From NCBI GenBank assembly GCA_945871915.1, contig CAMBXO010000009.1, positions 1 to 64,000 on the forward strand: a DNA stretch of 64,000 nucleotides, written 5' to 3'. Positions within the stretch are counted from its first letter, which is position 1; each line of letters starts with the position of its first letter. Below are positions 680 to 3,206 of the stretch, piece by piece. The notes under the pieces are model-generated. The model was not told where the DNA came from and searched no databases. It saw only the letters and a list, made by a program, of their open reading frames with translations. Position numbers and translations under genes: made by a program. This stretch comes from Singulisphaera sp. GP187. GTDB taxonomy: Bacteria > Planctomycetota > Phycisphaerae > Phycisphaerales > SM1A02.

Positions 680-1717
680 ATGAATTCCCTTACTCGGCGT
701 ATGCCATTACTTATTTCCGCAACCGCAGCCGTAGCCCTTGCCAGCAGTGCGTTTGCAACAGTCAACGGCACCCTTGTCGCTGATGCCTACATTGTGAAGG
801 ATGGAGCCGGCGCCAACGCCGTGTTCTATTCCGTGATCGATTTGTATATCAAGGGCAATCACCTTGGTGATGTGGCCAACCCGCTCACTGGCCTAAGCAC
901 CTACGGCTTTGAGCTGGCAAGCAGCCTTTCCACCAAGGATGGCGGTGGAGCCGTGACCGGTGACAAATTCAAACAGGCCGGCAACAGCAGTTGGTCGCCC
1001 AGTTACACCGGTACCAATTCTGGCTCGTGGGACAGTTTCGTTTCCGCAGGTGCTCGCCAACAGAGTGCCACGGTGACCAATGTTGCAGGCACCGTGAAAG
1101 ACATCGGCGGAGCAGGTCAACTTACGGGTGCCACCGATTTCACCCAATTCTCTGTTGCCAATAGCAATTACATCAACAGCGGATTCAATGGTGGATGGCT
1201 ACCAACAGGTCTTGGTTCGGGTGCCTATAGCACTTCCGGTACAGCACAGAATCCATTTGCACGCATCAGTGCGTACAACGCCACATGGGCACCAGGTGGT
1301 GCAAAGGCTGGCCTTGCCTATTCGGGCAGCACGCTGAATCGAAGTGACATTGCAAGCAATGGCCTTCTGACCAATGGTCGAGTCATTGTTGGATCTGCAC
1401 CCAACAACAGTGTCAATTGGCAGCAGACTGTTGCAGGTTCTGGCGCCACCCTCGACAACCACTTCATGCTGGCAAGACTTTCGATTGCCGTCAGCGATTT
1501 GCTGGCTGCCAATGCAGACGGCTTTGTCACGCTGCATATGCAGGGAAACATGACCGGTCGAAACGGAACTGGTGACAACGCCGGCACGGTGTTTACCGGT
1601 GCCAGCAATACCACCTACAAGGCAAACCAATACTTCACCTTCGCTGTGCCATCACCTGGAACTGCCGCACTCATTGGGCTTGCGGGACTGATCACGGTAC
1701 GGCGACGCGTTGCATGA
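680..1717 (+). CDS. PEP-CTERM-like secreted protein, tandem paralogue
   Basis: This 345-residue protein begins with a clear signal peptide: MNSLTRRMPLL, a hydrophobic stretch, and a cleavage-like A-F-A around residue 26. The start at 680 is preceded by AGGAGTCCTCTC, a good ribosome binding site. The body is low-complexity Gly/Ser/Asn/Thr-rich with no enzymatic motif. The C-terminus carries PSPGTAALIGLAGL followed by the basic tail TVRRRVA, a PEP-CTERM-like sorting signal. It is the second copy of a tandem duplication. The two copies differ most around the residue pairs before the final basic cluster and in a short stretch near residue 240. It probably encodes a surface or extracellular matrix protein; its function is not known. 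Confidence 0.88.
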   Translation: MNSLTRRMPLLISATAAVALASSAFATVNGTLVADAYIVKDGAGANAVFYSVIDLYIKGNHLGDVANPLTGLSTYGFELASSLSTKDGGGAVTGDKFKQAGNSSWSPSYTGTNSGSWDSFVSAGARQQSATVTNVAGTVKDIGGAGQLTGATDFTQFSVANSNYINSGFNGGWLPTGLGSGAYSTSGTAQNPFARISAYNATWAPGGAKAGLAYSGSTLNRSDIASNGLLTNGRVIVGSAPNNSVNWQQTVAGSGATLDNHFMLARLSIAVSDLLAANADGFVTLHMQGNMTGRNGTGDNAGTVFTGASNTTYKANQYFTFAVPSPGTAALIGLAGLITVRRRVA

Positions 1718-1734
1718 CAACTTGACTACCGTGA

Positions 1735-1998
1735 ACTCGCGACTGAGGAGGGTCAGTTACGAGTCACAGACGATCCACCGTGCTGAGGGGCACGCGGATC
1801 AACGGGGAAACGATTCGACTGGACATCGAATCGGAAAAGGGCCTGATGGGTGTGCGGTCTTGGAAAAGGGACTCACCCATCTGGTTTGACGCGTTGGGAA
1901 GCGCGTTTGAATCAAGGGCCAATGAGCCGCCGAGGTTACGGCTCATACCAGCACACAAGGACGGGGCTCCTGAGGGGGAGCCTCGTCCTTGTCTTTTA
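1735..1998 (+). ncRNA. Candidate structured RNA: seven consecutive hairpins
   Basis: Hand folding of the + strand gives seven successive hairpins. H1 is 1735-1764 (ACTCG/CGAGT enclosing ACTGA/TCAGT). H2 is 1772-1800 (GATCC/GGATC plus CGTGC/GCACG). H3 is 1811-1833, a perfect 8 bp stem with loop CTGGACA. H4 is 1845-1881 (8 bp plus 6 bp stems, loop GGAAAA). H5 is 1889-1906 (loop TTGGGAAG). H6 is 1922-1946 (8 bp). H7 is 1955-1992, a terminator. Loops H1, H3, H4 and H5 and the linkers at 1804-1807 and 1833-1835 contain GGA. No convincing promoter was found, so it could be a 3' UTR product of the preceding gene. The in-frame ORF across it has no ribosome binding site or protein-like composition. 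Confidence 0.5.
1955..1998 (+). terminator. Intrinsic terminator
   Basis: A 16 bp stem (1955-1970 with 1977-1992, one G-T wobble) with loop TGAGGG is followed by CTTTTATT. It ends transcripts reading rightward out of the PEP-CTERM genes and the hairpin array. Confidence 0.88.
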
Positions 1999-2054
1999 TT
2001 GAACTTGTTTTTTTGTTGTCACCATCAATCCCCTGCCATCGCAGGGAAACAGAA

Positions 2055-3206
2055 CTACGACCAGTTGGTGAGCGACGGGCCCGTGTACTCAGCCAGCGGT
2101 CGAATGATCCGGTTGTTCTGATGCTGTTCCATAATGTGAGCACACCACCCGGTGATGCGTGAGGCCACAAAGATTGGCGTGTATTGAGGCACTGGAATGC
2201 CCATGACGAAGTACGTCATGCCACATGGAAAGTCCACATTGGGGTGAATGTTCTTGTCTTTCAGCATGATGGCTTGCACCTTGTCACCAAGATCAAACCA
2301 CTTGCGAGCTTCGGGGCCCATTCGATTGGCCAACTTCAATCCCCATCCTCGCAGAATTGGCGCGCGGTGATCACCGTTTTTATAAACGCGGTGACCAAAG
2401 CCCATCAACTTTCGCTTTTCAACAAATGCTCGCTGCATCCATGCATCAACGGACATGCGGTTGCCCGCACAATCCAGATCGATCTGCTTCAGCATTTCCA
2501 TGGCCATCTCATTGGCTCCGCCGTGCAGCGGCCCCTTGAGTGCACCAATACCGCCACAGACGGCGCTATGCATATCTGTCTCAGTGCTGGCAATGGTGCG
2601 GCAACTGAACGTGCTGGCGTTGAAATCGTGCTCGGCATAAAGCACCAAACTGACATCCATTACGCGGGCTTCTAGAGCATCAGGTTTTCGACCCGTAATC
2701 AGCCACAGCAAGTTGGCCGCGTGGTCGAGCGACGCATCCGGTTCGAGAACAGGCTTGCCTTCGCGGCCTCGCTGACACGCGCCGATCAAGGTCGGAATTT
2801 GTGCGAGTAACTGCTTGCTCTTGCGTAATTCTGCCTCCGGCGAGTTGTCCTCGCACAGAGGGTTGGCATGCGAAAGAAGACTGACCCCAGTCCGAAGCAC
2901 GCTCATGGGATGTGCATGGGGATTGTTTCTTGCAATGTTGGCAACCTCGTCTCGCACGCTTGCCGGAATTGGACGCATGGCTGCGACTTCCAATTTGAAA
3001 GCAGCGATTTCCGCGGTCGAAGGTTTATGCCCCACCAACAGTAGGAAGGCAACCTCTTCAAAACTTGCGTGCTCGGCAAGATCGGCGATCTCGTATCCAC
3101 GATAAATAAGTTGTGTCTGCGTGACAGCACAGATGGCGGTGTCGCCCACCGTTAGTCCGGCGAGTCCTCGAGTGTCTTGCGGCTTGGCGGTCGGTGCAGC
3201 GCTCAT
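2055..3206 (-). CDS. Citrate synthase / 2-methylcitrate synthase
   Basis: The 383-residue protein is a short, Gram-positive/PrpC-type citrate synthase. It condenses acetyl-CoA or propionyl-CoA with oxaloacetate in the cytoplasm. Visible family motifs include the substrate-binding His region GGANE, the signature FGHRVYKNGDHRA around residue 285, and an Asp-containing segment (NVDFPCG) near the C-terminus. The start is supported by AGGAG six bases upstream of the ATG. It diverges, with under 50 bases between, from a lipoprotein gene coupled to methylisocitrate lyase. That neighbourhood favours a role in the 2-methylcitrate cycle, but the sequence alone does not separate this from the TCA-cycle citrate synthase. 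No prpD homologue is in the window. Confidence 0.92.
   Translation of the reverse strand: MSAAPTAKPQDTRGLAGLTVGDTAICAVTQTQLIYRGYEIADLAEHASFEEVAFLLLVGHKPSTAEIAAFKLEVAAMRPIPASVRDEVANIARNNPHAHPMSVLRTGVSLLSHANPLCEDNSPEAELRKSKQLLAQIPTLIGACQRGREGKPVLEPDASLDHAANLLWLITGRKPDALEARVMDVSLVLYAEHDFNASTFSCRTIASTETDMHSAVCGGIGALKGPLHGGANEMAMEMLKQIDLDCAGNRMSVDAWMQRAFVEKRKLMGFGHRVYKNGDHRAPILRGWGLKLANRMGPEARKWFDLGDKVQAIMLKDKNIHPNVDFPCGMTYFVMGIPVPQYTPIFVASRITGWCAHIMEQHQNNRIIRPLAEYTGPSLTNWS

Follow-up and report, generated by a model that had tools for sequence, protein, structure and literature searches.

The closest described systems are the RNAs CsrB/CsrC and RsmX/Y/Z, which consist of several hairpins, carry GGA in loops and linkers, end in a terminator and lower free CsrA. 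The TwoAYGGAY RNA motif, from bacteria, is likewise a small RNA whose defining trait is GGA in its loops. We know of no Csr-sponge RNA pair outside Proteobacteria, so that one in Planctomycetota would be the first, and to our knowledge little RNA regulation has been described in Planctomycetota. A search of the literature on CsrA/CsrB with Planctomycetes yielded no report of a Csr sponge RNA pair. Excerpts of PMC7652899 give ANGGAN as the hexaloop of RsmE targets and CAGGA(U/A/C)G as the CsrB repeat; there and in excerpts of PMC4682653, FliW is the usual alternative to sponge RNAs. The latter excerpts also describe FliW and BarA-UvrY, the two-component system driving the Csr sRNAs, as strongly anti-correlated, and count Planctomycetes among the groups that may use FliW. 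The flagellin leader of Campylobacter, a FliW-bearing organism, is a dual-function RNA with GGA hexaloops that titrates CsrA, and in some Campylobacter species without flagella csrA and fliW are both missing (both from excerpts of PMC4894983).

The window, a stretch of 64,000 nucleotides at the start of contig CAMBXO010000009.1, carries an RNA (RNA1) that resembles CsrB/CsrC and RsmX/Y/Z in its several hairpins, in the GGA of its loops and linkers and in its terminator; its genome also has csrA, and there is a further RNA (RNA2) with similar loops. Unlike the CsrB/RsmZ families of Rfam (CsrB, RsmY, PrrB_RsmZ), RNA1 is not enriched in GGA and has no above-threshold match. It also differs from the Csr/Rsm RNAs in the presence of fliW, in UGAGGG loops that hold no GGA and in its host, one of the Planctomycetota and not of the Gammaproteobacteria; CsrA binding is putative here. 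In contrast to the Campylobacter flagellin leader, the RNA1 locus is noncoding and no flagellin gene was found. TwoAYGGAY was not among the Rfam scan matches for RNA1, and the likeness to it is by description only. The parts of the locus are listed below; R2 models the hairpin that bears the UGAGGG hexaloop; it was made from nine hairpins of three RNA1s and searched against eight genomes.

680-1717, plus strand: upstream gene with a PEP-CTERM-like tail (open reading frame; tail by eye)
1731-1767, plus strand: H1, hexaloop GGAGGG at 1747-1752 (fold; R2 match at 1735-1764, 19.6 bits)
1772-1800, plus strand: H2, hexaloop UGAGGG at 1784-1789 (fold; R2 24.6 bits, an R2 training sequence)
1811-1833, plus strand: H3, GGA-bearing loop CUGGACA (fold)
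1840-1920, plus strand: three-way domain, closing stem 1840-1844/1916-1920, enclosing H4 and H5 (fold)
1845-1881, plus strand: H4 ("loop C"), loop region CUUGGAAAAGGGA, which has two GGA and one ANGGA (fold)
1882-1914, plus strand: H5, GGA-bearing loop UUGGGAA (fold)
1922-1946, plus strand: H6, loop CCGAGGUUA (fold, alignment)
1948-1954, plus strand: linker CCAGCAC (alignment)
1955-1999, plus strand: intrinsic terminator (H7), 17-pair stem, hexaloop UGAGGG at 1971-1976, U-rich tail (helix covaries)
2055-3206, minus strand: gene of the citrate synthase / 2-methylcitrate synthase family, convergent, the syntenic anchor (Pfam PF00285)

Positions 1731-1992 of the plus strand were predicted to fold into seven apical hairpins with the intrinsic terminator at the 3' end. 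The minimum free energy was −133.3 kcal/mol, compared with −98.0 ± 5.0 kcal/mol for dinucleotide shuffles (z −7.0), none of 200 being as stable. An earlier note on this DNA had described seven stems filling about 260 bases from 1735 onwards; stems and size are borne out, and H1 actually starts at 1731. It was also right about the intrinsic terminator, since the last hairpin (1955-1992) has 17 pairs, is followed by the U-rich CUUUUAUU and was scored as a terminator. Four apical loops, those of H1, H3, H4 and H5, contain GGA, as the note had stated, and its figure of about ten GGA corresponds to ten counted in 1718-2001. The hexaloop UGAGGG is common to H2 and H7, while that of H1 is GGAGGG. The minus strand of the region is likewise strongly folded (z −8.9), which is expected because the inverted repeats are near-perfect; the U-tract of the terminator is confined to the plus strand. 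RNA1 measures approximately 260-290 bases in the window genome (G000) and is longer in some relatives. Its 5' end was placed by us, at the upstream stop codon or at the first conserved hairpin. By blastn it is single copy in its own genome, in which short low-scoring matches of the window RNA1 also occur.

The PEP-CTERM gene that the earlier note placed upstream stands as far as its tail motif, recognized by eye; the gene (680-1717) matched no Pfam and no NCBIfam family. Within positions 1-1717, the PEP-CTERM-like gene is present as two tandem copies, 89% alike where compared. More copies lie elsewhere in the genome, one of them, on contig C20, being 93% alike.

RNA1 is a real, conserved structured RNA that is not listed in Rfam. 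Its full set was gathered via citrate-synthase synteny, and orthologues convergent with citrate synthase were present in all 13 of the 16 genus genomes with a readable locus (G000, G001, G002, G004 to G009, G011 and G013 to G015). Each of these loci holds a multi-hairpin RNA ending in a terminator that faces citrate synthase; the locus in G002 is without its upstream flank. The unreadable genomes are G003 and G012, where citrate synthase is cut by the contig end, and G010, which gave no hit. Whole-locus blastn with the window RNA1 gave a good match in G006 only, and the copy from G008 gave weak matches at seven further genus loci. A covariance model of the RNA1 3' domain (R1) was built from ten genomes, excluding G000, G006 and G008. 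It recovered the three left-out RNA1s, with 47.6 bits in G006, 37.7 bits in G008 and 42.3 bits (E 6.3e-10) over the 3' domain in the window, which is outside its training set. In the relatives, the homologue of the three-way domain (1840-1920) is their conserved second domain.

Covariation of the stems among relatives, which had been named beforehand as the way to check them, was strong. Compensatory changes, with both sides changed, were found in 33 of the 49 base pairs of the 3' domain across the 13 genomes. The 13-row alignment, which was fitted to the structure, scored 0.427 versus 0.197 ± 0.013 when shuffled (0 of 500 shuffles reached it); 97.4% of its cells pair, and slid versions scored at most 0.138. 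An unfitted ten-row alignment agrees (0.170 versus 0.119 ± 0.007; 0 of 500). A conserved reading frame would have spoken against an RNA, and no ORF of at least 20 codons is common to all 13 RNA1s. Nine of the ten group-2 genomes (not G014) have an ATG frame of 29 codons within the 3' domain, which was rejected as a gene; it is absent from G000, G006 and G008, and its middle is out of frame in G002. Neither the window RNA1 nor the loci of 12 relatives had an Rfam match above threshold, and the Rfam Csr/Rsm families were absent from the matches at E up to 10 for the window and up to 5 for the relatives' loci. The orthologues, the covariation and the Rfam result all agree with the suggestion of an undescribed structured RNA. 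The 5' domain differs in its number of hairpins: ahead of the core stand one UGAGGG hairpin in G000, two in G006 and four in G008. The locus in G014 (L046, contig C4) has approximately 240 more bases between stop codon and terminator than those in G001, G007 and G011, mostly as an extra 5' domain. The H6 loop in the other 12 genomes contains CGGAGGGCA.

At the sensitivity used, RNA1 appears to be restricted to one genus, whose members look like lake-dwelling planctomycetes. Searched at E ≤ 0.1, R1 matched 15 of 181 family genomes, namely 12 of the genus and three others; this family-wide search missed the window's own copy, which a local R1 search finds. The matches outside the genus (G047, G032 and G212; E 2.4e-4 to 0.03) were rejected on inspection. 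At the five places in G047, only a terminator-like hairpin and U tail match by eye, and the places in G032 and G212 lie inside frames open over 248 and 689 codons. A second place in G014, inside a frame of 540 codons, was also rejected. The exact 25-base H6 pattern matched 11 records among 84,980 species genomes, all of them already in the set. Recurrent 20-base hits to 1886-1905 in genus genomes were set aside, their flanks being mutually alike and unlike the window. The five places in G047 (contig C1; L168, L171, L173, L174 and L175) share a near-identical terminator hairpin, GGGGTCGGGAGTCTTT...AAAGACTCCCGACCCC with a T-run.

Besides RNA1 and a coding-looking place in G006 (E 0.0011), the best R2 hits were in an intergenic multi-hairpin RNA, RNA2, in G008 and G012 (E 0.0017). 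In the window genome R2 found RNA1 only, plus one hit at E 8.5. RNA2 is unlinked to RNA1 and adjoins an M16-peptidase gene; it was present in 14 of the 15 genus genomes read. In G014 the M16 gene is present with no such RNA beside it; G010, which gave no M16 hit, was left unread. The loci are:

G000:C2:178263-178340 (L233), minus strand: RNA2 of the window genome, CA-GGAGGG-UG hairpins, twice
L230-L232, L234-L242 and L244: RNA2 at the other loci; 13 of the 14 loci have CACACA, 14-16 bases and CGTAT, a promoter-like element

The hairpin core CA-GGAGGG-UG occurs in 15 hairpins in the 14 genomes, two of them in the window genome, and is invariant across the 14 in a free alignment. The stems covary, scoring 0.651 versus 0.259 ± 0.047 over seven distinct hairpins (0 of 500 shuffles). 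The start of RNA2 was set at CGTAT, or at a typed stand-in where CGTAT is missing. A model of RNA2 (R3) found, at E 0.05, the RNA2 locus alone in each of the 14 genomes. Against Rfam PrrB_RsmZ, the RNA2 of G008 had a sub-threshold score of 21.1 bits (gathering 44; E 0.29).

By total count, GGA is not enriched in RNA1. The window RNA1 has 10 GGA versus about 10.1-10.2 ± 2.0-2.1 in dinucleotide shuffles, and the total is at chance in all 13 RNA1s (highest in G006, 13 versus 10.7 ± 2.3), whereas the E. coli controls were enriched in the same test (csrB 22 versus 15.0 ± 2.6, csrC 14 versus 8.8 ± 2.1). The sum of unpaired GGA, a test that csrB and csrC pass as well, was significant in none of the 13 (5 to 50 of 60 shuffles as high). 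GGA is carried by four apical loops in the window RNA1, compared with a mean of 1.2 and a maximum of 3 in 100 folded shuffles. Six of the 13 RNA1s have four such loops and seven have one or two, against shuffle averages of 0.8-1.2. The total GGA of RNA2 was not significant (50 to 146 of 300 shuffles as high). Its unpaired GGA was above the shuffled mean in all 14 genomes, a level reached by 0-4 of 60 shuffles in 13 of them and by 13 of 60 in G006.

Loop C keeps ANGGA in all 13 RNA1s. The forms AGGGA, AAGGA, AUGGA and ACGGA are all present, so that N takes each of the four bases, the pattern to be expected of a reader that recognizes A and GGA and ignores N. Since the ten group-2 rows come from close relatives, these 13 cases amount to far fewer than 13 independent events. 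By count, ANGGA was enriched in the RNA1 of G008 (7 versus 2.0; p printed as 0.000 from 1000 shuffles) and of G006 (6 versus 2.05; p 0.011), and it was at chance in the other 11 RNA1s and in all 14 RNA2s. This shuffle test is weak, since csrB itself gave p 0.145. A k-mer test that assumed no motif took in seven of the 13 RNA1s and one of the 14 RNA2s. The most enriched unpaired 4-mer was GAGG (20.2 versus 2.4 ± 1.1), in all eight RNAs, with AGGG next. Unpaired GGA was mildly up (21.5 versus 15.0 ± 2.5), and AGGA was not enriched.

Most probably RNA1 serves as a decoy for some RNA-binding regulator; CsrA is the best single candidate, followed by a reader of NGAGGG loops. Our leading reading, which we hold tentatively, is that RNA1 is a trans-acting regulatory RNA that most likely titrates CsrA. 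RNA1 would be transcribed on its own and act in trans as a structured small RNA and protein decoy. Its GGA-type loops and linkers would be offered to one or both copies of CsrA and so might lower free CsrA, in the manner of CsrB/C and RsmX/Y/Z. RNA2, beside the M16-peptidase gene, may act together with RNA1. The RNA2 core CA-GGAGGG-UG is close to the CsrB repeat as given in the excerpts of PMC7652899, which argues for CsrA; the single GGAGGG in each RNA1 counts on this side too. The top rank of GAGG and the missing enrichment of AGGA argue against CsrA, and so does the presence of CsrA throughout the order when RNA1 was found in one genus only. The sponge proposed in the earlier note thus receives a mixed answer. 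Four GGA apical loops in six genomes, the ANGGA of loop C in all 13 and the CAGGAGG loops of RNA2 speak for it; the one or two GGA loops in seven genomes, a chance-level GGA total where csrB and csrC are enriched, the subclade's amplified UGAGGG hexaloop without GGA and the fliW next to csrA speak against it. Because GGA enrichment and an Rfam match are both missing, we did not file RNA1 as a member of the CsrB/RsmZ family. This lowers the case for membership, not the possibility that RNA1 works like CsrB/RsmZ.

Whether the genome holds a csrA had been left to a genome check, which found two copies (G000:C6 and G000:C7). CsrA-family genes were present in 100 of the 101 genomes searched. Residues that contact RNA in CsrA are present: L4, replaced by I4 in the second copy, together with R6 and the segment SVHRKE or DVHRRE. 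Of the contact residues, L4 and R44 are named in the excerpts of PMC7652899. One csrA of the window genome lies directly behind fliW, and FliW was found in 56 of the 61 genomes searched, including 14 of the 16 of the genus. This position of fliW weighs against a CsrA decoy, given the anti-correlation of FliW with the Csr-sRNA two-component system in the excerpts of PMC4682653. The Pfam Flagellin_N model, which detects flagellins near fliW in the relatives G023 and G082, found none in the 16 genus genomes. As judged from these gene inventories, the known flagellin-FliW-CsrA switch seems to be without its flagellin here, with csrA and fliW kept. That fliW-csrA is kept while no flagellin can be detected looks unusual and would allow for a different titrant. 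RNA1 and RNA2 might form a two-RNA Csr sponge in a FliW-bearing phylum, having replaced or supplemented the flagellin-FliW input to CsrA once flagellin was lost; we consider this fuller scenario unlikely. A link of the genus to CL500-3/Nemodlikiaceae is a guess. A flagellar apparatus is reported for Nemodlikiaceae in excerpts of PMC6461901, which does not fit the finding of no flagellin in any of the 16 genus genomes.

The fliW-csrA pair on G000:C6 (L176:4812-5559) adjoins a gene for a membrane-protein-like product of approximately 690 amino acids, and by eye such a gene is beside fliW in some other genus loci too (L179-L181). The second CsrA-family protein (G000:C7:15284-15448, L177) is shorter and has a four-residue insertion relative to the profile. 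Second CsrA-family matches, at approximately 52-57 bits, occur in many genomes of the order.

The decoy may instead serve another reader of NGAGGG loops, be it a different RNA-binding protein, the anti-Shine-Dalgarno sequence that ends 16S rRNA, or a small RNA rich in C; we regard this as rather doubtful. GAGG and GGAGG pair with the CCUC and CCUCC of the anti-Shine-Dalgarno sequence, and GAGG led the unpaired 4-mers in eight of eight RNAs. GGAGGG is found once in each of the 13 RNA1s and in all 14 RNA2s, and R2, though trained on RNA1 hairpins alone, finds RNA2 in G008 and G012. In the subclade of G000, G006 and G008, all nine TGAGGG lie at hairpin tips, on compensating stems: the 12 stem positions of these hairpins all vary, with compensatory changes, the loop being fixed by the way the hairpins were picked. 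The hexaloops contain no GGA and stand four in a row in G008. These arrays are limited to the window's subclade, and the eight-RNA test leans on its three array-bearing RNAs; ten of the 13 RNA1s have a single GAGGG, at chance by count. Shine-Dalgarno-like purine loops are common in structured RNA, which also counts against this reading, and we know of no reader of an NGAGGG loop. Should the loop be read by something other than CsrA, RNA1 and RNA2 would point to a new RNA-binding regulator. RNA1 offers a clear test of whether CsrA is RNA-controlled in lineages thought to rely on FliW. It is a well-bounded, covarying RNA family in Planctomycetota.

RNA1 could also be the structured 3' UTR of the PEP-CTERM-like gene, stabilizing the mRNA, stopping read-through and possibly releasing a 3'-derived sRNA, a reading that we find improbable. 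A PEP-CTERM-like tail is seen by eye upstream in 12 of 13 genomes, the upstream end being cut off in G002. In the window genome and in G004, G006, G008, G009, G013 and G015, RNA1 lies tens of bases past the gene with no terminator visible by eye between them. No promoter-like site was called in the window, in line with the earlier note, the scan giving no sigma-70-like site within 1400-2200. Against the 3' UTR, a terminator-like hairpin parts the gene from RNA1 in five of the 13 genomes (G001, G005, G007, G011 and G014), and it was called in all three that were scanned (G001, G005 and G014). The same five genomes have an extra 5' domain in RNA1 and, by eye, a conserved element of TTGCAT/TTGACT, 16 bases and TAnTNN before it. 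The sigma-70 scan did not call this element in G001, G005 and G014, which weighs for the 3' UTR and against the CsrA decoy. By eye, the upstream proteins differ between species while RNA1 is kept. The RNA2 of G008, with loop sequences as in RNA1, follows no gene on its strand: the M16-peptidase gene converges on it and a radical-SAM-like gene (by eye) diverges from it. The CACACA-CGTAT element precedes 13 of the 14 RNA2 loci. Judged by such sequence elements, RNA1 as its own transcript is supported in some species.

It is quite unlikely that RNA1 is an ordinary base-pairing sRNA acting on mRNAs via the unpaired CAGCAC linker or the GGAGGG loop. CAGCAC occurs once per RNA1, invariant and at the same place before the terminator in all 13, and the enriched unpaired 5-mers include AGCAC; a variable number of 5' hairpins fits a series of binding sites better than it fits a single seed. 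If there were no functional RNA here, and terminator-like repeats had clustered by chance or an inverted-repeat element had moved in, the strong folding on both strands would be accounted for, but this is hardly credible for a sequence that is single copy by blastn, sits at the same locus in 13 of 13 genomes and shows compensatory changes.

Several minor observations concern RNA2. Outside the genus, R3 gave 11 matches, spread over 10 genomes (best E 3.2e-4); seven of the 11 were inspected, and none of these was counted. G182 and G185 have putative matches, a terminator-like hairpin with the loop CCGGAGGG in the former and a hairpin with the loop GGAGGTGTC in the latter. Upstream of RNA2, nine loci (L234-L238, L240-L242 and L244) share by eye a conserved block GGGGAGAT...ATCTACAC...GAGTG or GAATG. 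After it comes a hairpin resembling a terminator, around GCGTCC-CGGTGG-GCGC and with a T-run. The block may represent a third small RNA, or else a neighbouring transcript may end here.
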